Of a stretch of DNA of 26,951 bases, positions 2,913 to 26,600 are shown in pieces. The notes beneath the pieces were generated by a model. That model made no database searches. It was not told the DNA's origin and saw nothing but the letters and a program-made list of their open reading frames with translations. Numbering within the stretch: the first letter of the stretch is position 1; each line of letters opens with the position of its first letter. A program made the position numbers and the translations under genes. Location of the stretch: positions 1 to 26,951 of the IMG/VR virus record IMGVR_UViG_3300045007_000398, one strand, 5' to 3'. Source of the stretch: a virus.

Positions 2913-3641
2913 TTGATAAAACTATTGCAACAAAAAGCGAATGAAGTTAGAAAACAGGTTTTGGAGAACTGTTATCGCTATAAGAACAACCACTTGTCCT
3001 CTTGTCTAAGTATCGTAGACATTATGACAGTGCTGTTTTTTGGAGAGTTCGTCCACGAGGAAAAATCCAAATTTATAATGAGCAAGGGCCACGCAAATCT
3101 TGTGCATAGTACAATTTTAGAAATGATGGGGACACCAAATGTCAGGCATACTGACCATCCTGAATACGGAAATCCGGGAATAGTGTGCACCTCTGGTTCC
3201 CTAGGCCAAGGGCTTGGTGTTGCTTGTGGAATGGCTTTGGCAAATAAGTTGAATAATGTTGGAAAAAGAGTGTATACCATAGTCGGAGACGGCGAATGCT
3301 ATGAAGGGCTAACTCAAGAAGCTCTGAATTTTATTACAAATATCCCAATAACTGTTTTGATAGACTACAATGGTTATAGTTGTGAGAAGGAAAGTCTTCA
3401 CTTGTCCTATGTCAAAACTCACATAAATGGACATAATATAGAAGAAATATACAACGCAATTAAAGAAACGTCAGAACCCCATCCTCGGGGCCATATAATT
3501 TGTTGTCATACGACAAAAGGTTATGGAATACCTAGTATTTATCATACAGAATTATTACACTATATCACACTAAATAAGGATAATATAGAAAGCATCACAA
3601 GAGAAATGGATTTTAATTTACAAATTCCTAAATCAGAATGA
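2913..3641 (+). CDS. Transketolase N-terminal half (thiamine diphosphate-binding subunit of a split enzyme)
   Basis: The 242-residue protein contains the thiamine-diphosphate (PP) domain of transketolase. The cofactor/Mg motif begins with GDGE at residues 125-128 and ends with N153 in DYNG. It is preceded by SKGHAN (57-62) and by GSLGQGLGVACGMA, a typical transketolase stretch. The usual length of a fused transketolase is about 650 residues, so this is only the first domain; the pyrimidine-binding domain is in the next gene, overlapping by ATGA. The start is a TTG one base after the previous stop, with no good Shine-Dalgarno sequence; an in-frame stop at 2898-2900 limits any extension. The SGHPGG segment of normal transketolases is changed here to NNHLSS. 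Split pairs like this occur in sugar biosynthesis clusters. Confidence 0.88.
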   Translation: MIKLLQQKANEVRKQVLENCYRYKNNHLSSCLSIVDIMTVLFFGEFVHEEKSKFIMSKGHANLVHSTILEMMGTPNVRHTDHPEYGNPGIVCTSGSLGQGLGVACGMALANKLNNVGKRVYTIVGDGECYEGLTQEALNFITNIPITVLIDYNGYSCEKESLHLSYVKTHINGHNIEEIYNAIKETSEPHPRGHIICCHTTKGYGIPSIYHTELLHYITLNKDNIESITREMDFNLQIPKSE

Positions 3642-4528
3642 CTACACAGCGCGACACCTTTTTTCAAACTATAGGCGATGCCTACAAACAAGGCAGGAAA
3701 GATTTAGTAGTATTAACTGCTGATATGGGGGCAGCAGCATTAAATGAATACAAAGGTTCCGATTTTTTAATTAATCCTGGTCCCTGCGAGCAGTTGGTAA
3801 TAACAATGGCAGCAGGATTGGCATTACAAGGAGCAAAACCATTCTGTTATGGAATAGCCCCATTTATTTCCCTGCGTGCCATAGAACAAATAAGAGTGTC
3901 TGTTTGCTCCATGGATTTACCAGTTACAATAGTGGGAGTTGGTAGTGGGCTTTCCTACGATACAGCAGGACTTACCCATCATGGGACAGAAGACCTCAGT
4001 ACCATGCGGACAATACCCAACATGAATATAGTCAATATTAGTACTATTGAAATGGCTAAATGGTATGCCAAATTTTCAATGGAATATAAACATCCCTTAT
4101 ATGTTAGACTAGATAAAAAAGCATACAACCAAACATTTATTCCTCTGTATGGTTGGTTCACTCATAATTACGGTGTAGTAAATAGGGTTAATAAAAATGT
4201 GGCAATTATTACTACGGGGGTTTTTACCCAATACCTGTTAGAACAAAAATCCGTTTTGCCTAAAAATTCCTTTATTCTGGAAGTCTATAGATTTCCTTGT
4301 GAACAAAAGAAATTGTCTACTTTTTTGGAGTCCTGTGCTAAAATAATCACAGTAGAAGAAGGGTATACTACAGGAGGATTAGGTGATTATATAGCCTCAC
4401 TTGGTTTCAAAGTAACAAAAATTGGTTTAAGCACATTTTGTGAAACTCAGCTCAGGCAACACTATTGGGATAAATTATTAACAGAAATCAAAAATGAATT
4501 GCAGGGAGAGAAACGTGAAGGAAGGTAG
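3638..4528 (+). CDS. Transketolase C-terminal half (pyrimidine-binding and C-terminal domains)
   Basis: This 296-residue partner of the preceding gene holds the pyrimidine-binding domain: CEQ at residues 50-52 contains the conserved glutamate that activates thiamine diphosphate, and HHGTEDLSTMR (114 onward) is the transketolase/DXP-synthase type signature. From about residue 180 a C-terminal Rossmann-like domain follows, with EVYRFPCEQ and the EEGYTTGGLG motif. The ATG overlaps the previous stop, so equimolar synthesis with the other half is likely. The pair would move two-carbon units between sugar phosphates, for example making sedoheptulose-7-phosphate, which fits the heptose-kinase-like gene at the left edge; that link is inference. 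A synthase using thiamine diphosphate for another sugar is possible. Confidence 0.88.
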   Translation: MTTQRDTFFQTIGDAYKQGRKDLVVLTADMGAAALNEYKGSDFLINPGPCEQLVITMAAGLALQGAKPFCYGIAPFISLRAIEQIRVSVCSMDLPVTIVGVGSGLSYDTAGLTHHGTEDLSTMRTIPNMNIVNISTIEMAKWYAKFSMEYKHPLYVRLDKKAYNQTFIPLYGWFTHNYGVVNRVNKNVAIITTGVFTQYLLEQKSVLPKNSFILEVYRFPCEQKKLSTFLESCAKIITVEEGYTTGGLGDYIASLGFKVTKIGLSTFCETQLRQHYWDKLLTEIKNELQGEKREGR

Positions 4529-9912: not shown

Positions 9913-12291
9913 TTGGTAAAATTATCCAGTAATGCGATGGAAGTTTTAAACAAAAGATACTTACAAAAAGATAAAAATGGCAACGTTGTTGAAACATCTG
10001 AGCAAATGTTCAGACGTGTAGCTAAACATATAGCAAAGGCAGAAAGAACACCAGAATTGCAGAGGGAATGGGAAGAAAAGTTCTACAATGTAATAACTAA
10101 TTTGGAGTTTCTCCCAAACAGCCCAACCCTCAGGAATGCTGGTGCAAATAGTGGAGTGTTAGCAGCTTGTTTTGTTCTTCCTATAGAAGATTCTAGGTCA
10201 AGTATTTTTAAAACCCTGACTGAAGCTGTGGAAGTGCAGTCTTGGGGAGGAGGAACAGGGTATTCCTTTTCTAACTTACGACCCAAGGGGGATTTAATCC
10301 GCACAACTGGTGGTTCAGCAAGTGGACCTTGTTCTTTTATGGAAGTATATGATTTTACTATAGGTGAGATAATAGAACAAGGTGGTACTAGGAAAGGTGC
10401 TCAACTTGCAACTCTCCTATGCAATCATCCTGACATATTCAGATTCATAGACTGTAAAAAACAAGAGGGCAAACTTACGCATTTTAATATTTCTGTTTCT
10501 ATTACAGATAACTTCATGGAAAAATTAAACAAAGATGAAGGTATTGGTGATTGGTCGCTAGAATTTGAAGGAAGAGGATATTCTTTATGTAGTACAAAGG
10601 AACTATGGGACAAAATAATTTATAATGCTTGGGAAAATGGAGAACCGGGGATATTATTCATTGATACCATTAACAAGAAAAATCCTTGTAACAAATATCA
10701 GACAATCGAAAGTAGTAATCCATGTGGTGAAAGTCCACTTGCTTCTTACGAGTCCTGCGTACTAGGTTCTATTAATCTTGCTAATTTTGTAATTAGAAGA
10801 TATTTTCCCCCTAATTTGCAGAAGCCACTGGATGGGGGCCTTGATTTCGATTGGGACAAACTCAAAAGTGTAATCAAAGTTGCTGTTCGTTTTTTAGATA
10901 ATATAATAGATGTTAATAACTACCCCATCCCAGAAATAGAAAGAGAAACGAAGAAATTTAGGAAAATTGGTATTGGTGTCATGGGGTGGGCTGATGCTCT
11001 GATCAAACTGAACACGTCTTACAGCAGCCAACAGGCTTTGGCCCTTGCAGAAAAAATTATGAAATTTATTAATACTGAAGCTATTTCATATTCTAAAGAA
11101 TTGGCGATTGAAAAGGGATTTGGCACATGGAAAACCCAAACAGAATTAAGTACAACAGAAGAAACTACCACAGAACTAGCCACTAGGAGAAATGGGGTAG
11201 TTACCGTAATCGCCCCCACAGGCACATTGTCCCTGATTGCTGGTTGCTCCGCCGGAATTGAACCAATATTTGCCTTAGAATTCAATAAAAAATGTATAGA
11301 TAAAGAAATAGTAGTCAAACACCCTTTGTGGGAAGAATACACCAAATCCCACTTCCCCAACATAGTTCCGGACTGTCTTGGGATCAAACCAGAATATTTC
11401 ATAGAATCCAAAGATGTTCCCATTGAGCAGCATATTAGGATGCAAGCGGCGTTTCAAAGGCATACGGAGGGGGCTGTATCTAAAACTATTAATGCCCCTA
11501 ATTCAGCCACTATTGAAAATGTGGATTACGCATTCAAATTAGCATTTGAACTCGGATGCAAGGGCATAACCTTCTATCGCCAAGGAAGCAGGGAAGACGA
11601 AGCCCAAACACCCATTGTAGACAAAGGACACGTAGTGAAGTCAGGCCCAACACACCAGGCTGTCAACCTGGAGACCGCGGGTTCAAATCCCGTCGTGTCC
11701 GCCAATTCAGAAGAAACACTTTTTCCTCCTGAATGGATGTGGGGGGGAAGACAAATGGTAAAAACTGGAGAAGGCACACAGTGGATTCATTTATTTGAAG
11801 ACCCTGTAACTGGCTACAGGGAAATGTGGTCCCAAATTAGTAAAGAAGGGAGAACAATTTCTTCCATGAATGCTGCTACGGGGCGATTAGCTACTTTGGC
11901 ATTAAATAGGGGGGCGACTTGGGAAGAAGTCGAAAAGCAATTGCGAGGAATCATAGGAGAAAAAACGGCTTGGTTTGGTGGTGAGCAAATACTTAGCCCT
12001 CCCGACGCAATGGCTAAAACTATTAGGAAGCGTATATTAAAAAATCCAGAATGGAATAAAATGTTGTTAGTATTGTCAGGTCAGCACAATCCAACAAAAG
12101 ATATGGGTTCTGCTCCTACCCCCAAATTCCAATCGGATAAAGAAATTAAACAATTACATGATTTTGGCTTTAAAATAGCAAATGAATTATTGGGGGAACC
12201 TCTGTGCCCAGACTGCGCTTTTCCTTTGACCTACGATGAAGGATGCAAGGGCGGGAGATGCGGAGCTTGTGGGTGGTCTAACTGTAGTTAA
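9913..12291 (+). CDS. nrdJ: Class II (adenosylcobalamin-dependent) ribonucleotide reductase
   Basis: The 792-residue enzyme reduces ribonucleotides to deoxyribonucleotides for phage DNA synthesis. TTG at 9913 is the start, with AAAGGAG eight bases before it. The first redox cysteine is C86 (AACFVLP), the active-site motif NPCGE is at 269-273 with catalytic C271 and E273, and the partner cysteine C282 lies in SCVLGSINL. The barrel ends near residue 555 (GCKGITFYRQGSRE). A linker follows, then a TSCPD-like domain from about 617 (ISKEG...RLATLAL...QLRGI) and a cysteine-rich tail with C765, C768, C778, C783, C786 and C791 that probably relays reducing power. Absence of a second subunit and no radical-generating gene fit class II. 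Residues 572-597 are encoded by a complete tRNA-Asp gene, which is extraordinary. Confidence 0.93.
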   Translation: MVKLSSNAMEVLNKRYLQKDKNGNVVETSEQMFRRVAKHIAKAERTPELQREWEEKFYNVITNLEFLPNSPTLRNAGANSGVLAACFVLPIEDSRSSIFKTLTEAVEVQSWGGGTGYSFSNLRPKGDLIRTTGGSASGPCSFMEVYDFTIGEIIEQGGTRKGAQLATLLCNHPDIFRFIDCKKQEGKLTHFNISVSITDNFMEKLNKDEGIGDWSLEFEGRGYSLCSTKELWDKIIYNAWENGEPGILFIDTINKKNPCNKYQTIESSNPCGESPLASYESCVLGSINLANFVIRRYFPPNLQKPLDGGLDFDWDKLKSVIKVAVRFLDNIIDVNNYPIPEIERETKKFRKIGIGVMGWADALIKLNTSYSSQQALALAEKIMKFINTEAISYSKELAIEKGFGTWKTQTELSTTEETTTELATRRNGVVTVIAPTGTLSLIAGCSAGIEPIFALEFNKKCIDKEIVVKHPLWEEYTKSHFPNIVPDCLGIKPEYFIESKDVPIEQHIRMQAAFQRHTEGAVSKTINAPNSATIENVDYAFKLAFELGCKGITFYRQGSREDEAQTPIVDKGHVVKSGPTHQAVNLETAGSNPVVSANSEETLFPPEWMWGGRQMVKTGEGTQWIHLFEDPVTGYREMWSQISKEGRTISSMNAATGRLATLALNRGATWEEVEKQLRGIIGEKTAWFGGEQILSPPDAMAKTIRKRILKNPEWNKMLLVLSGQHNPTKDMGSAPTPKFQSDKEIKQLHDFGFKIANELLGEPLCPDCAFPLTYDEGCKGGRCGACGWSNCS
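11626..11704 (+). tRNA. tRNA-Asp (anticodon GTC) nested in frame in the ribonucleotide reductase gene
   Basis: The sequence folds as a full tRNA. The acceptor stem is GGACACG/CGTGTCC (11626-11632 with 11694-11700, seven perfect pairs), followed by discriminator G and encoded CCA (11702-11704). Bases 8-9 are TA. The D arm pairs GTG/CAC, with A14, G18G19 and A21 present and one mismatch at 13-22. The anticodon stem is CCAGG/CCTGG (11655-11659 with 11667-11671), loop CTGTCAA, anticodon GTC at 11662-11664. The variable loop has five bases. The T stem is GCGGG/CCCGT with one G-T pair and loop TTCAAAT. It lies on the same strand as the reductase and is read as 26 stop-free codons plus one base. Whether it is processed is unknown. 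Confidence 0.93.
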
Positions 12292-13077: not shown

Positions 13078-14088
13078 TTACGTCCTCACGGGGTAAAATC
13101 TTGTAGTAACACTTACAACCCGTTCCGGAGCCACAACCACTTCTATTGTCCAAAAACCCATAGAAGCACTTATCTTCCTACCCCGCATAAATGGTGTTTG
13201 GTGTTGGGTGCATCCTCCCTGTATTATGCAAACGCCTCTGTAGAAAAGTACTTCAGCTTTATGGTAGTGACCAACTAGCAAAAGATCTGGTTTTGTTCCT
13301 GGGGATAATTCTGAAACGTATTTTTGAACATTATATGAAATTGCATAAGCTGTCCCACCATCTGGATGACAAAGCCTGACAGTTGCTGTGGAATCACCAG
13401 AACCTATAGTGATATCAGCCTCTTGATGTCCCAAACAAACCAAGTCTTTGCGTTTGTCAGATATTTTTGCTCCAATATCATTGCCGCCATCTTTCCAGAA
13501 ACTCCTATCGTGGTTACCAACAATAAAATAGGTGGTTATGCCTTTGCGTTGTGGATAAACTTGGCAAGCCAAATCAACTTGTGCGTCTGCCCCAATAACC
13601 TCTAGTTCATATTCGTGACCCTTAAACATTTTTTGCCCATCTATAATATCCCCAGAGTGAAATACCGTTTTAATCTTTTCAGATTCAAAGACGTCATAGG
13701 CATAATTAAGTAGAGCTTTGTCCGAATACAAACTGCCTATATGGCTATCGGAAACATAGCCAAATTTATGATGAGTACCATCCAAACAAAGCATGGGGGT
13801 TTGGATGTGTCTGGTTAGTTCTTGAACTTGCCTCTGTAATTTCCTAACCTGTTCTTCAGCATCAAGAAGTTTATAAGAATCTACTTCGTTTTCTTTATAG
13901 GTTTCGTCCCCCATTTCGGCTAAGTAGTTTTTAGCCTTTTCTATAACTTCACTCCACTTCCCAAACAAGCGATACAGTGAACGCCTTGATGGTTTTTCTG
14001 TTTTTAGCGCGTCATAGACTGTGGCAGAAATAACTCCCTGTTCCCTAATTATTTTAGCAAATTTTTCTATGGTCGTTTTTTGGTCCAC
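13078..14088 (-). CDS. Calcineurin-like metallophosphoesterase with HTH-like N-terminus
   Basis: The 336-residue protein has the full metal-binding set of the calcineurin-like family: D114 and H116 (SDSHIG), D147 (GDIIDG), N192-H193-D194 (GNHD), H241 (CHPDGG) and H274/H276 (GHYHK). The N-terminal 60 residues look like a helix-turn-helix (SRRSLYRLFGKWSEV), and residues 70-95 form a short coiled coil. Such proteins are nucleases, RNA or nucleotide phosphodiesterases or phosphatases; the HTH suggests a nucleic-acid substrate, which is inference. GTG at 14088 is the start, supported by AGGAGG four bases upstream. It follows the spanin genes and precedes small proteins in the late operon. Confidence 0.85.
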   Translation of the reverse strand: MDQKTTIEKFAKIIREQGVISATVYDALKTEKPSRRSLYRLFGKWSEVIEKAKNYLAEMGDETYKENEVDSYKLLDAEEQVRKLQRQVQELTRHIQTPMLCLDGTHHKFGYVSDSHIGSLYSDKALLNYAYDVFESEKIKTVFHSGDIIDGQKMFKGHEYELEVIGADAQVDLACQVYPQRKGITTYFIVGNHDRSFWKDGGNDIGAKISDKRKDLVCLGHQEADITIGSGDSTATVRLCHPDGGTAYAISYNVQKYVSELSPGTKPDLLLVGHYHKAEVLFYRGVCIIQGGCTQHQTPFMRGRKISASMGFWTIEVVVAPERVVSVTTRFYPVRT

Positions 14089-18477: not shown

Positions 18478-21400
18478 TTAATAACTCATCCTAAAAGCCG
18501 AAACTTTCAATGACCAGGTAGAATCTTCTTCTATGTATAATTCCACTATTTGATCTTCATCCAAAGAAACCCAACCTTCTCCTTGGGTAGTCCCTACTGG
18601 TGCAGTACCATTAATAGAACCAGATCCTGTTGTCCCATTTTTCCTAACCCCAAAATCAGTTACGGTAGTAGTTGTTACTGATAGAGAGAACCAAGCATTT
18701 AATGAGACTGGGGGGGCCAAATCACTAACATCTTGATCCACCCAATTTTGTGCGACAGTTCCAGATGAACAGGTTTGTATCACACCATAATAAACATCTC
18801 TACCCAATTGGGTAAAACTCTTAAACCCACCACTCCCAAAAGTTCGCATAGCTCCTAGTAGATATTTATGGGTATAGCCAGATGGCAAACTAGGAGTTGC
18901 ACTACTAGTGGAACCTAATCCCCCAACCAAACCTTGAACACTATTAGCAATAGCATAAAAATAGTACCAAGTACCTGTAGCTAAACTACCAGTATCTAAG
19001 CCATTTACACCCGTAGTTGCAAAATCAATGGTAAAACCCTGTGCAACAGCCGTATACACACTACCTACAGTATCCTGCAAATCACATAGGTCGAATGATA
19101 CGTCTATTTTAGTTCCGGGTGTTGCACTATTAACACTTATTTGTAAATTCTCTGGTGTTCTAGATATCTCATCCCCAGGATTGCCTACTACATAGGAATG
19201 TGCTGTTACATCAGATAAACTTTGTAAAATTCTCCCATAATAATTAAAAGCAGGCAACTTTACATACATAGTTCTATCAATTTCTTTTCTGTCTATATCA
19301 TATTTAAATAGTCTTTCATCCAAGCGAATAAATGTTGAACCCATTTCATGTGTAGCTATGGTGGAACTGTAACAACCCCTAATCAAATAATCTAAATCAT
19401 AATTATATGCCGTAGTCAGGGTTGCGTTTTTATAAGCAAGATATTCTCCATCTACATAACATAAGGTTCTTAAGTTTGTTGCCTCACTAGTAGCAGCAGA
19501 AGACAAAGATCCTTTACTGTCAGTCAAATCAATACTTAATATATTGCTTGTATCTAGCGCAGACCCTTTGCCAAATACCGTACTCAGTGAACCAAAACGA
19601 CTTTTTCCTATTAAAGTTCCTACTTTTTTATAAGTAATATCGTCGTCAGAAACCCAAATATTACAACCACCCCAATTATCACCACCAGATGTTGCCAACC
19701 AAACCTGCGGATCAGTAGTTAATTTTAATGGTGGAGTTAAAATTAGTGGGGTCGTTGAATTCCCCGGAGCAATAAATTGGTTATAACCCCCACCCCCAGG
19801 ACTCTGGTGACCATAAGAAGCTGGATTAGCCACCCCAATATCAACTTCTTCAGCAATAACCTTTAACTCGTTATCATCTAGCTCTTCTATTTCAATTATT
19901 CGGACTAGTTGCCTGTTAAGACCCAAACCATCCTCTGTAATAGTAACCAAATCTCCTGGTTCCAACAAACAGTATCCCCAATGCAATTTAAATTCATAAG
20001 TATTCCTTACTGTTATATGTTTAGCACAAATGATTTGTGCTATTCTCAATGCCAAATCTGGGTCTGTTATTTCATGCAATTTCACAACCGAAGCCGTTTT
20101 TAGTCCGAAATCTTCTATATTTGCTTGATCTTTAAATTCGACAGGCTCTGGGTTGTATTCATTGTTTTTATTCAATATTTCTATTTGTATATGGTTATAG
20201 GCATCTTGTGGTGTATTTCTACTGCATAAAATAGGAGATTCGCTTTCTCCCAGAAAATCATCATTATCCAAATCATAGATAGGGGTTATGTTGGGGATCC
20301 AAGTAACACTCCCATTTGTAGCCGTAGCATCCCCATAAGGCATCATCTTTATCTTACCTTCACTCCAAACTATATCCGAGTTGGTAGCTTGCAACCAACG
20401 AGAAAATATGTCACGAGCATCTTCCTGGTCTATAATTGCAGGCGATAAAAAAAATTCATTAGCTATACAGTAATCATTATAATCTTCCAGGGAAGACATT
20501 AGTATATTAGAAGTAGATAGATTAAAACCATAATATTCGTTAGTCCAAATATCTTTAAAAACCGTAGCTGGGTTTGAACCAATTATCTTGCCATAGATAT
20601 AATCAAATAAAACTGCTCTATTGTAGTCTCCCTTATAAAAAGTATATGTACCATCATCTACGGCATATTCATTTGCTGTTGGGTCGCTAACTACTTCTGT
20701 CAGTATAGTTCCACTTGTGGACCACTTTACTTCTATATTCTCAACAAAAGTTGCTTTTTCATTTACTTCTACAGTAAATGGCAAAAGAACATATCCATAA
20801 GTTATATGCACCTCTGAACCAGCATAAATTGCCTCAAATGTGTAAACTCCTTCACTCGCTGTATGTGGAATATCACTGCCATCTCCACCTGCTACACTAA
20901 TGTCAGCGGCCCAATCTGCAGTATGTCCTACAGTTATCGTATAGGGAGGACTTAAAGGAACTATCAATCCTATTTCCGATTTAGTAGTAATATTGGGTGT
21001 AGTTGCCGCCTCGTCATTCATAGTAGCTAGAGTAGTGTAGTTTGGACACAAACCCGCAATTACAAAGGTAAAATTGGGTAAACTAGGCGTTTCCTTTAAG
21101 TCATAATTAGTAGCAGCAAAGTAAGCCAAACCAGGGTATGGTAATGCCTGTGTTGCGTGGCTCGAACATAGATAAGACCAAGGTGCTTGGGGGTATGTTC
21201 CCTTAAATGTTACCATTCCTTGTTCGCTCACCATACCAGTATAAATACCAAAGACAGTTTGCCAACCAGGAGTAATTGTGGCGGGATGTAAATCTATTGT
21301 TTCTTTACCTGCCCAAACTTGGTAAATATCAACGATAGGCCCTTCACAAAGACCCAGACAAAAGGCTACTCTGTACGTCCAGGTATTTGTAGATTGACCT

Positions 21401-21618
21401 GTAGCAAACATACCCCCCTTGCCACCAGCACCTTGACTATTGGCTATAGCTTGAAAATCACCATACCAAATTAAATTCCCAGTTATTCTGGTGAGCCCAT
21501 AGACTATAGGGACAGGTAGCCCGTAAGCAGAAGTTTGAATTCTGATACCGTTAGCTACAGGCTGGGCTGTGCTATTATCGTTACCCCCACCAAATAAACC
21601 ACCCATTAGGGTCCCCAC
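18478..21618 (-). CDS. Tail hub / tip attachment protein (J-like), with C-terminal adhesin-like domain
   Basis: The 1046-residue protein matches the tail hub proteins of siphoviruses and gene transfer agents: a Gly-rich start (MGGLFGGG), VPIVYGLTRITGNLIWYGDF at residues 34-53, then a hub core with PATVFKDIWTN and, near residue 520, the LEPGDLVTIT segment of the Phage-tail_3 type. The lower part contains CYVDGEYLAYKNATL. The last 200 residues (TGVNGLDTGSLATGTWYYFYAI, SGYTHKYLLGAMRT read as two pieces) look like a tail-fibre C-terminal domain grafted on. An inserted domain at about 220-300 is of unknown type. Its start overlaps the NlpC/P60 gene by 13 bases. Confidence 0.82.
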   Translation of the reverse strand: MGTLMGGLFGGGNDNSTAQPVANGIRIQTSAYGLPVPIVYGLTRITGNLIWYGDFQAIANSQGAGGKGGMFATGQSTNTWTYRVAFCLGLCEGPIVDIYQVWAGKETIDLHPATITPGWQTVFGIYTGMVSEQGMVTFKGTYPQAPWSYLCSSHATQALPYPGLAYFAATNYDLKETPSLPNFTFVIAGLCPNYTTLATMNDEAATTPNITTKSEIGLIVPLSPPYTITVGHTADWAADISVAGGDGSDIPHTASEGVYTFEAIYAGSEVHITYGYVLLPFTVEVNEKATFVENIEVKWSTSGTILTEVVSDPTANEYAVDDGTYTFYKGDYNRAVLFDYIYGKIIGSNPATVFKDIWTNEYYGFNLSTSNILMSSLEDYNDYCIANEFFLSPAIIDQEDARDIFSRWLQATNSDIVWSEGKIKMMPYGDATATNGSVTWIPNITPIYDLDNDDFLGESESPILCSRNTPQDAYNHIQIEILNKNNEYNPEPVEFKDQANIEDFGLKTASVVKLHEITDPDLALRIAQIICAKHITVRNTYEFKLHWGYCLLEPGDLVTITEDGLGLNRQLVRIIEIEELDDNELKVIAEEVDIGVANPASYGHQSPGGGGYNQFIAPGNSTTPLILTPPLKLTTDPQVWLATSGGDNWGGCNIWVSDDDITYKKVGTLIGKSRFGSLSTVFGKGSALDTSNILSIDLTDSKGSLSSAATSEATNLRTLCYVDGEYLAYKNATLTTAYNYDLDYLIRGCYSSTIATHEMGSTFIRLDERLFKYDIDRKEIDRTMYVKLPAFNYYGRILQSLSDVTAHSYVVGNPGDEISRTPENLQISVNSATPGTKIDVSFDLCDLQDTVGSVYTAVAQGFTIDFATTGVNGLDTGSLATGTWYYFYAIANSVQGLVGGLGSTSSATPSLPSGYTHKYLLGAMRTFGSGGFKSFTQLGRDVYYGVIQTCSSGTVAQNWVDQDVSDLAPPVSLNAWFSLSVTTTTVTDFGVRKNGTTGSGSINGTAPVGTTQGEGWVSLDEDQIVELYIEEDSTWSLKVSAFRMSY

Positions 21619-22046
21619 AAACTATAGAATACTTTTTTTCTTTTAGCCAAATCTCCCATGGAAGCATTACCCCAAACACACTTTTTTTCCGATCTATAAG
21701 CATGGATTATAAGAGGCCAATCAATTACAATGGCTCCATGGGCATAACAGTGACCGAATTTATATACTACTAAGTCTCCCGGCAAGGGAGGTCCCTCTAT
21801 TCTCTTAGTAAATTTCTCTAGCCATCCTATGTACTTCTCTTCTCCTCTATGTAAAAACCATTGTTCAGAATAGCTTTCAACGTGTATAGGGTCTATCAGA
21901 CCTACGTTTACCCCTACTCTCAACAATAGTCTTCCGCAATCAACTCCTACTCCCTTAATTGCTGCGTCGTGATGATATGGGGTACCCACCCATGTTATCG
22001 CTTCTTCAACCACTAATTTTCTTTGTTCTTCTACATTAGTAAGCAT
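21606..22046 (-). CDS. NlpC/P60-type tail peptidase
   Basis: From the ATG at 22046 the protein has 146 residues; longer frames exist up to 22154 but would overlap the upstream gene by over 100 bases, and an ATG at 22064 with AGGGG upstream is a fair alternative. The NlpC/P60 triad is present: cysteine in GVDCGRLL, histidine in YAHGAIVIDW, and a further histidine in IIHAYRSEK. AITWVGTPYHH is the usual opening. Such proteins sit at the tail tip and cut peptidoglycan stem peptides at entry, or process the tape measure. It lies between the DUF2163-like gene and the hub, as in gene-transfer-agent-like tails. Confidence 0.85.
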   Translation of the reverse strand: MLTNVEEQRKLVVEEAITWVGTPYHHDAAIKGVGVDCGRLLLRVGVNVGLIDPIHVESYSEQWFLHRGEEKYIGWLEKFTKRIEGPPLPGDLVVYKFGHCYAHGAIVIDWPLIIHAYRSEKKCVWGNASMGDLAKRKKVFYSLWGP

Positions 22047-22959
22047 TTTCTGGTTTAGGCACATATGGCATTCCCCTAAAATGGGATACTGTATTACCTG
22101 CTGTGTAAGCCAAATTAGAAAATTTTTCTGCGCAAGTAATTTGTCTTTTGTCACAACCAGGCCAAAGAATTAGACCGTCTCCTACAGAAGGAATTGTTAG
22201 TAGGGAGGAATTTAAAGTCAACTGCCCTGGTGTTTGACTTTTTATCGTTTTTCTTGTGCCATCCAGCTCCCCAGAAGTAAATTCTATAGCTCCTAAATCA
22301 TAGTAACCAGTAGCTCCTGTATTATCACACACTACAACCTTCCTTGTACTGCCAGCTACGACTTGAGATACTGTTGCCCAGTTGGCTTTATTCAAAGTAC
22401 AACCAATGTCAAATAGGGTATACTGACACCCTGGTTGATATAAATTCCTAGGCAGTTGCCTATTAAAAATTTCTAAATCACTTTTAACTGTAATTTCAGC
22501 TTCTTGAGTGAGTTTAACTGGTTCTGCCACATTGCCTGTAAATAAAATAACGACCCCCACAGGATTTAAAACAGAGATTATATCATCATTAGGTGTACTA
22601 CTAGAAAAGGCTCGTTCCAACTTAATTGTAGCCCCATCTAAAGCCCCCAACCTAACAGCTTTTAGCCAAGAAATGCCGAGTAAAGTATCTTCATCTTCTT
22701 CACTGTCTGTAGAAATTGGATATATCTTTGGAGACATTGTCAGTTCTAATGAATCTACTTCTAATCCCCTTACTATCCTTACTTTACTTCTTTCCATAAC
22801 GAAAGGAGTAAAAGTATGACCGTTCCAAACTATATTAACATCACTATTAGTATAATAAACTGAAGTCCCCCCCACCAACGTAATAGTCAGCAGATCAGCC
22901 ATGATAAATTCATCATAACTATTTAACAAACTTAACAATTCACTGGTGGCTGATTTCAT
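22036..22959 (-). CDS. DUF2163 / BR0599-like tail assembly protein
   Basis: The 307-residue protein reads as the tail protein that follows the DUF2460 protein in gene-transfer-agent-like phages. LLNSYDEFIMADLLTITL opens it; the middle has FNRQLPRNLYQPGCQYTLFD with CTLNKANW, and the end carries WPGCDKRQITCAEKFSNL and FRGMPYVP, the C-terminal BR0599 signature, with cysteines that could bind metal or an iron-sulphur cluster. Its start overlaps the preceding gene as ATGA. The protein probably builds the distal tail or hub. Confidence 0.85.
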   Translation of the reverse strand: MKSATSELLSLLNSYDEFIMADLLTITLVGGTSVYYTNSDVNIVWNGHTFTPFVMERSKVRIVRGLEVDSLELTMSPKIYPISTDSEEDEDTLLGISWLKAVRLGALDGATIKLERAFSSSTPNDDIISVLNPVGVVILFTGNVAEPVKLTQEAEITVKSDLEIFNRQLPRNLYQPGCQYTLFDIGCTLNKANWATVSQVVAGSTRKVVVCDNTGATGYYDLGAIEFTSGELDGTRKTIKSQTPGQLTLNSSLLTIPSVGDGLILWPGCDKRQITCAEKFSNLAYTAGNTVSHFRGMPYVPKPENAY

Positions 22960-23600
22960 TTAACACTTACCAATACAATGCTGTCGGTTCTCCAAAGATT
23001 ATAATTAAAATTTTCTAACCCAATATAATCTTCTTTAAACCTGCATCTATAATAAAAGTAGAAGTCGGCAGTTATAACAACTCCATCAGCAGGGGCAGTA
23101 GTAAAAGTGACTAATCCTCTTTGTGAAATGGAATAATCAGAATATTGTAATACTCCGTCCAAGTAGATGTAAGGAGTTTCCCAAATGGGGACTCCATAGC
23201 CTGATCCAGAATAGTCGCTACCACCTTCACCATAGCCCGTTGTAAACGGAGGGAAGTAAGGATATTCTGTAAACCAATAATTCCAATTTCTGTATAACTG
23301 AAACTGAGTAGTGGAACCATCACCAGTCCCTAAAGCAAAATCTTCTACATTATTTAGGGGATCCCTGAAATAAAAGGTATCAAATGCCCCTTTCAATAAG
23401 TTAAGAAAACCCCCAATTATTAAAATGTCGTCATTATCCATTAGGGTGAATGGGAATTCAAATTCCCAAATGGGGGCTGAATAGTAAGACCCTCTATATT
23501 CCATACCACTAACTGATCGCTTAACAATAGTATTCCAAACGGGCCTTCTAGTAAAGGAATAAGAAATTTTAGGTAAGGTGGGGAAAATAACGTTAGCCAT
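22956..23600 (-). CDS. DUF2460-like distal tail protein
   Basis: This 214-residue protein has the DUF2460 pattern: FPTLPKISYSFTRRPVWNTI at the start, YRGSYYSAPIWEFEFPFTL, a FYFRDPLNN segment and VTFTTAPADGVVITADFYF near the end. The family forms the distal tail ring that joins tube and hub. Residues 120-150 hold a Gly/Tyr/Ser-rich insert (GYGEGGSDYSGSGYG) that is probably a surface loop. The gene shares one base with the end of the tape measure gene. Confidence 0.85.
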   Translation of the reverse strand: MANVIFPTLPKISYSFTRRPVWNTIVKRSVSGMEYRGSYYSAPIWEFEFPFTLMDNDDILIIGGFLNLLKGAFDTFYFRDPLNNVEDFALGTGDGSTTQFQLYRNWNYWFTEYPYFPPFTTGYGEGGSDYSGSGYGVPIWETPYIYLDGVLQYSDYSISQRGLVTFTTAPADGVVITADFYFYYRCRFKEDYIGLENFNYNLWRTDSIVLVSVK

Positions 23601-26600
23601 TACTTTGTTATCATCCTACCATAACTATAGTCTCTGTGGGATTGTTTAAGATTTTTAAGCATCTGTTTCCCATGTTTTTCAAGAACTTTGTCCACACCCT
23701 TGGCATCTATAGCATTTACTTGTGGGGCATAAGTAAAATTAATTGAAGAGCCTGATTGTGGGACATATCCCGCATTCACAGCGTTAAGGAAGGGAACACC
23801 TACCGCATCTACTCCTCTGCGAGATACCATGTATTCGCCAACCTGTCCAATTAATGGCACTTCATCGTGGGCTAAATGCATTCCCTGATGAGCACGCCGA
23901 ACTTCACCCATATTAACACCAAGGGAGGCATCATTTCCAGGCCCTGTCCCTCGGTATCCACCACCACCCATTAAACCGGCAGCTAGGGTTCCAGCAAAAG
24001 CAACAGCAGCAATTATTGGGGCCAAAGCGATATTCAAGGGGAAGGGTACAGATTGCATTACAGATCGGAATCCAGCGGCTGCGGCCATCCCTGCATCTTT
24101 TATAACGGCGGCTTGAGCAATCTTCGAAATAATACCAATTATCTGGCTACCCGCCCCCAATAAAGAAGACATCCGAGCAATATTCCCAGCGCCTGAGGCA
24201 GCAGTCATGTTCTGTTGAGAACTAATCCACCTATTTTCGATATTATCAATAACCCCAAGAGCTGTACTACCGAAACTTTGTATTTGAGATTGTTCACGTC
24301 CAAAGAATCCCTCACCGTCTGGAATTTCTGCGCCACCTAGACCACCAGGAACACCCCCACCCACACTAGGAACAGCATTCCCTAAAACCTCAGCAGCTTC
24401 ATAACAATACTCCAAAATGGCCAAACCAGCAGCAATACCACCCTGTTCGATAGTCATAGCTGATAACTCGGCTTGGGTCTGTTGTGTTCCAACTTCTGTG
24501 CCAGTTATCCATTGCCAAAGTTTTGCTACTCCTGTGAATACCTGACCAACTCCTAAATCTAAGCCCTTTTGCAGCAAACTACTTACTATAGTTCGAGCAA
24601 TCGCTTTTAAATCAAACCCTTTCCCGCTGAAATAATTAATAAGCTGCTCTCCAATACCTTTACTAACCTGCTGTTCTACATCTTCTAAAACACTTTTCAC
24701 TATCCCAGATATTTCTGTTAGGCTTTTTTTAATTCTCTCTAATGCCCAAATATTAATACCACCTAAAATATCCTGAGTTTCCCACTTCTTAACTGTCAAC
24801 TGATATCTTTGGGCAGCTTGTTCAAGAAGCAACAAAGTGGCTAATTCTTCTTTCTGCACACTACTAAGATTTTGATTTTTCTCAAGATATTCGGCCAAAT
24901 CAATTTTTGCCACAGCCTGTTGTATGTGCAAACTAGCTTCTTGATATTTTAATTGGTCTGTAACAAGGGGCATATTAGAACTGAGGCCAGAAAGGTATTT
25001 TTCATACTGACCAAGTATGCTTTTTTGTGCTTCCAGTTTGTTAAGCTGACTTTTAAGAAGATCATCTTTTTCTTTTTCTTTAATAATATTTTCGGTGTTC
25101 TTTCTTAGATATTCTACTATGTGTGTCCCATGTATTTGGTCGTAGGCTTCTAAACCTGCATCTAATATCAGTTGTTCTGTTTTAGAACGGAGTATTTCTT
25201 TCTCAAATCCTAAAGCGTATGTTCTCCACTCATTCTGTTCTTGATATGTTAGGTTCATTCCAGCAAGAATGTCAGCCGTATTTTTGACCATTTCATTTAT
25301 TTTAATGGTGTCATTCAATTCAGTTCTATACAGTTCTATGGCTTTTCCCAGTTCCTGTATCCCTTCCTTGTCATAACCCCCCATCTTCGCCGCCAAAGCC
25401 TTGTCTGCCACTTGTTGCCATGCTTTCGTTGCATCTAAGCCAGTATATTTACTAAAGATCTTATTCACATAATCGTAAGTTTCTTTGCGAATACCAGTTC
25501 TCGGCGCACCAGCTTCTATCCATTTATCTACATTCGCAGGACCCCAGTTGTATGCCATTAAGGCCAACCATCTATCTTTAAATTTATCTAACATTAAATC
25601 AAAATATTTTGCCCCACCCATAATATTTTGGCGTGGATCAAAAATATCTGTCACCTCCATATCCAGAGCTGTGCCCGGCATTAATTGCATAAGTCCCTTT
25701 GCCCCCTTGGGGGAGACAGCCCCAACTCTGCCGCCAGATTCTGCAGCTATCATAATTCTGATAAAATCGGCACCTATTCTTGGATATTTGTTTGCTGCTT
25801 CTTCCACTGCATCAGCAATTTGTTGGCTCAAGGGCCTAGTATCTATTTGCAAAGGAAATTGGGGATATTTTCCTTCCATTTGTCTGCGGTATTCTAAACC
25901 ACCCATAAAATTTTCAAAAATCTTATAATATCCCCCATAGTCTGTGGCATAGGCGCCACTCGGAGGTATAGGAATATTACTGTATGGGCTTGATTTTCCT
26001 TTATTCCCAAATCTGTCAAACAGTTTTAATAGTTCGTCTAATCTATCGGTCAGTTCTTCTATTTGAAACTTCCAACTGTTGCCAAATCTAGTAGCTGACT
26101 CTACTCCCTTATCCCCTACAGATACCAAGGTCTTTTCTAGAGCAGAACCACCCTCCAAAAGACCAGACATAATACCACCAAGGAAACCTCCTTCTTTAGA
26201 AGGTGTGAATTTCCTTCTCAATTCTTCATACTTAAATTCTATTTTTTTGGCTTCTCCTCCTATGGTGCCCCCTACTATAGTATCTAAGTAAAATTGGTAA
26301 AATTCTCTATTGGATTTTTCTATCCCCTCCTTAATAATTTTATCCCGTAGTTCATATAATTGTCTCTCGAAAGCTATTGACATTTTTTGGGTTTCCCCAA
26401 ATTCTCTCATTTTTGTTATTGATTTTTCTATAGAATCATTCAACTTAAACATATGGGACACTATCCTACCAAAATGATTTTCAGTTGACTTGCCTAGTTC
26501 TTGTCCCATAGTGGCTATAAGGGAATTGGCAGAAGTTAAGGCTGCGACAGCTTCTTCCTTCCACTGCCTGACCCAAGGCTCCTGTTGGGTAGGTGGTAAT

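Follow-up and report, generated by a model that had tools for sequence, protein, structure and literature searches.

The window, the whole stretch of DNA analysed here, is a 26,951-base IMG/VR virus record for which no family is listed. Among its genes are those for a glycosyltransferase, a radical-SAM protein, an endolysin and tail proteins. The nearest annotated relatives of the large tail protein are found in phages of Acinetobacter, Brevundimonas, Pseudomonas and Rhodobacter, and the source virus is most likely a tailed phage infecting a bacterium. A contig of another record (L111) is 99.4% identical to window positions 18673-24060, so the same virus or a close strain has also been assembled elsewhere. 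This contig covers tail genes only and does not reach the nrdJ site. The alignment between the two contains 11 gap openings over 5.4 kb, which hints at sequencing or assembly indels in one of them. Two further genes are of separate interest. A predicted metallophosphoesterase (13078-14088, minus strand) has below-cut-off similarity to the small subunit of archaeal DNA polymerase II (PolD; NCBIfam NF003118, E 4.8e-14) and to a phage DNA repair exonuclease family. On the plus strand, a phage transketolase (2913-4528) is split into two adjoining half-genes (2913-3641 and 3638-4528), which lie near glycosyltransferases and a nucleotide-sugar dehydrogenase-like protein.

The features of the nrdJ locus are collected in Table 1. 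The gene begins at a TTG codon with AGGAG upstream and contains no stop up to its last listed base. Three Pfam domains are recognized in the translated sequence: Ribonuc_red_lgN and Ribonuc_red_lgC, the all-alpha and barrel domains, which reach to residue 555, and TSCPD (residues 653-706). The NCBIfam model NrdJ_Z matches with 604.6 bits against a cut-off of 399.95. All six C-terminal cysteines (C765, C768, C778, C783, C786 and C791) are present and are kept in relatives (alignments A1 and A2). In another class II enzyme, the terminal cysteines serve electron delivery and zinc binding (PMC5704485). By family score, domains and cysteines, the protein is a class II NrdJ with a Cys-rich C-terminal domain, and on its sequence the enzyme domains look intact. 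Speculatively, the internal ATG within the C-terminal region could start a separate C-terminal domain, behind a weak ribosome-binding site.

Table 1. Features of the nrdJ locus, in window coordinates.
Feature	Position	Strand	Basis
nrdJ, class II (B12-dependent) ribonucleotide reductase, 792 aa	9913..12291	+	Open frame, Pfam, NCBIfam
Catalytic barrel, residues 84-555	10162..11577	+	Pfam PF02867; alignment to T. maritima NrdJ 1xje
Interdomain linker, residues 561-609, predicted disordered, whole tRNA inside	11593..11739	+	AlphaFold2
tRNA-Asp(GTC), encoded CCA	11626..11704	+	ARAGORN, Rfam 68.1 bits, stem check; in frame, residues 572-597 plus one base
C-terminal TSCPD / Cys-rich domain	11740..12288	+	Pfam PF12637; alignments A1, A2
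Candidate internal ATG, start of C-terminal domain, behind GGGGGGGAAG	11755..11757	+	Sequence only; weak, speculative

The initial annotation had placed a complete tRNA-Asp gene on the nrdJ strand, inside the reductase frame, and had proposed ARAGORN as a check. ARAGORN calls tRNA-Asp(gtc) at exactly this position, as the sole tRNA of the window. Rfam (cmscan) matches RF00005 at 11626-11701 (E 4.3e-13; cut-off 29 bits), and the score of this match is typical of the cellular tRNAs listed for seven genomes, which score about 63-77 bits. In the cloverleaf, 20 of 21 pairs are standard. Pairing is complete in the acceptor, anticodon and T stems, and the D stem consists of three pairs and the one exception, an A.A at 13-22. 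The discriminator G73 and the CCA are present and the conserved bases are intact. The GUC anticodon and the full cloverleaf point to tRNA-Asp identity. C38 is usual in the anticodon loop of tRNA-Asp and is common rather than strictly defining. The window tRNA has A38, which does not exclude Asp because a cellular tRNA-Asp of the Elusimicrobiaceae genome L148 shares it. An archaeal origin, considered on account of the D-arm, was dropped, as this bacterial Elusimicrobiaceae tRNA-Asp has a similar D-arm together with A38. The matches in 14 genomes are partial only.

The tRNA with its CCA is 79 nt long, equivalent to 26 codons plus one base, and it starts at the first position of codon 572. The reductase frame is open throughout, as the initial annotation had stated. 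The tRNA is internal to the frame, 195 codons upstream of the end of the protein, rather than forming a C-terminal extension where the gene ends. It lies between Ribonuc_red_lgC and TSCPD, in agreement with the proposed linker position. AlphaFold2 gives a pLDDT below 50 for residues 561-609, with block means of about 25-33, and the flanking barrel and C-terminal domain are better predicted. The linker has 48 residues here, 26 of them from the tRNA, and would have 22 without it. In single-ORF relatives it has 17-58 residues, and both 48 and 22 are inside the natural range.

The tRNA segment differs in composition from the rest of the gene. Its 26 codons have a GC content of 61.5%, compared with 39.6% in the remainder, and a GC3 of 65%, compared with 33%. 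Its codon likelihood is lower than that of every other 26-codon stretch of the gene. An in-frame insertion of an intact tRNA-Asp gene into the flexible linker of a phage nrdJ is strongly indicated, as the GC and codon use of the segment are unlike those of the rest of the gene. The initial annotation had offered insertion into a tolerant linker as one of two readings, and this is supported by the linker lengths, the compositional contrast and the predicted disorder. No convincing promoter for the tRNA is found within the gene, so the tRNA would have to derive from the nrdJ transcript. The local RNA as a whole has no extra stability compared with shuffled sequences (z 0.09).

Frames often stay open across a tRNA. 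Roughly 36-39% of frames through tRNAs are open. In a set of mostly cellular tRNAs, 31 of 57 and 26 of 57 are open in two of the three frames, and among viral tRNAs the counts by frame are 25, 10 and 44 of 74. For two of the three frames, the open share is between about a third and three fifths of the tRNAs. Among 684 distinct viral tRNAs from other loci, 98 sit within same-strand frames that stay open for at least 100 codons with 20 codons on either side, and only 18 lie in such frames with 60 codons on either side. Sixteen of these 18 share the frame with a second tRNA and represent frames across tRNA arrays. The remaining two, ARAGORN calls (L121 and L139/L140), were rejected as further nested tRNAs; in L121 and L140, Rfam does not detect a tRNA within these frames. 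Such calls are the reason why the double support from ARAGORN and Rfam matters. One well-supported tRNA flanked by two conserved domains has no counterpart among the 684 other viral tRNAs. The surprise is this arrangement and not the open frame itself.

In the 109 other related reductase loci, taken from viruses and genomes, no tRNA lies inside the gene. A pattern for the 3' half of the tRNA has no match in any other viral contig. Three IMG/VR scans for the T-arm of a tRNA, placed an appropriate distance past the barrel end motif, give 45 matches and no reductase, within a coverage from which the window record itself and very near records may fall out. A middle-distance version of the barrel and T-arm pattern has no match in 297 genomes, and a viral scan anchored on the C-terminal motif contains no reductase with a tRNA among the matches listed. 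An alignment of C-terminal domains was dropped as a scan query, being too divergent. An apparent split nrdJ in Geotalea (L009) looks like a frameshift and is not counted as evidence. Many of the viral class II reductases among the loci L040-L110 are barrel-only, with open frames of roughly 530-740 aa and no C-terminal domain by similarity to the window NrdJ. Six loci (L002-L004, L025, L026 and L028) have reductase frames of 1130-1581 aa with long insertions within the barrel, which are probably inteins.

The account that we consider probable, with considerable room for doubt, combines the linker insertion with a read-through enzyme and occasional tRNA processing. Ribosomes that read through would produce the full-length enzyme with 26 tRNA-encoded linker residues, as the intact domains suggest. 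On some transcripts the tRNA would fold between ribosomes, RNase P would cut its 5' end and 3' processing would free it. Each such event would leave two pieces, an nrdJ message without a stop codon, whose end falls exactly at codon 571, and the detached 3' part. Ribosomes on such a nonstop message are expected to enter ribosome rescue. By analogy with NrdJa without NrdJb (PMC4520616), an enzyme product cut off before the C-terminal domain would retain its catalytic site and lose normal re-reduction. Enzyme and tRNA would each be made at the expense of the other, and the earlier reasoning that processing and full-length translation compete is sound. This competition would be a by-product of the insertion, with or without a role in control. 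The account brings together a cell-like tRNA score and an intact cloverleaf with CCA, a 792-aa frame that keeps barrel, TSCPD and terminal cysteines, a disordered linker of variable length that holds the whole tRNA, an insert of foreign composition absent from the related loci, and the lack of a convincing promoter. Against it, the arrangement is known from a single sequence, the gene in its pre-insertion state is not seen in any close relative, coupled ribosomes might block folding of the tRNA, and the local RNA is no more stable than its shuffles.

Other explanations differ from this account mainly in what becomes of the tRNA. It may have arrived recently and stay unprocessed in infection, unfolded by translation or of no gain to the phage, so that only the reductase is made. 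A linker that accepts many lengths, the frequency of open frames through tRNAs and the missing sign of a dedicated promoter are all consistent with such a passenger. The intact stems and conserved bases speak against it, as they imply that the tRNA is either recent or maintained by selection. RNase P does not require structures of this kind to have their own promoter, a further point against the passenger, which we regard as unlikely. An assembly chimera of two sequences joined at the tRNA is conceivable for a lone metagenomic contig. Such a chimera would need to bring together the barrel and the C-terminal part of a class II reductase in frame, at the domain boundary and on opposite sides of a 79-base element, and is very improbable.

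Alternatively, nrdJ may have retained the tRNA because processing adjusts how much reductase is made, as in the proposal for selB/selC. The architecture and logic are those of the published selB/selC model (PMC8124441), an RNase P cut would fall exactly on a codon boundary, and class II reductases with the C-terminal part as a separate protein exist (PMC4520616). No second nrdJ case appears in the IMG/VR scans or the 297 genomes. We know of no functional link between tRNA-Asp and dNTP supply, which weighs further against a regulatory role, and such a dual-coding switch is doubtful. A per-molecule choice between reductase and tRNA-Asp, in which each cut removes the electron-delivering domain and so tunes dNTP supply against translation capacity during infection, is held with similarly little confidence.

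Nested tRNA genes themselves are already known, and the statement in the initial annotation that no case had been described does not stand. In Alphaproteobacteria, complete tRNA-Sec genes (selC) are nested in selB ORFs, and alternative expression of tRNA and protein has been proposed (Mukai 2021; PMC8124441). As in nrdJ, the selC tRNA is complete, on the same strand and in frame without a stop with a conserved protein gene. It also begins at a codon boundary (GGA, Gly), and the model proposed for it is the one put forward here for nrdJ, in which cleavage leaves a nonstop message and a transcript gives one of the two products, tRNA or protein. Unlike the nrdJ tRNA, which is internal and upstream of a needed domain, selC is a C-terminal extension at the end of the selB ORF. 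It is functionally related to the SelB protein and the arrangement is conserved across many species, whereas nrdJ carries an ordinary elongator tRNA in a phage and has been seen once. A mitochondrial tRNA-Lys of Armadillidium vulgare, as cited in PMC8124441, is likewise described there as wholly within a coding region (cox1) in direct orientation; it is a 60-nt tRNA in a compact organelle genome. In Pseudomonas aeruginosa NrdJa/NrdJb (PMC4520616), the Cys-bearing C-terminal part is also separable from the catalytic part, but as two proteins, with no tRNA described between the genes. Functional-looking tRNAs are encoded by other phages, including in tRNA-dependent lysogeny (PMC10865867). Those are separate genes, whereas the window tRNA is inside nrdJ. 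An attachment-site reading of it was set aside, as no integrase is identified in the fragment, the window being incomplete. No phage or reductase example of a nested tRNA was found in the open-access literature. The new element is the position of an ordinary elongator tRNA within the gene for a phage enzyme.

Annotation pipelines usually take a tRNA and a protein gene as mutually exclusive. Even as a passenger, the nrdJ insert means that a tRNA gene can become part of a conserved phage gene whose translation runs across it. Should both products be made, the locus would be a clean natural case in which one stretch of RNA, inside an enzyme, is both the linker of that enzyme and a processed structured RNA, and the competition between ribosomes and RNase P would become directly measurable.
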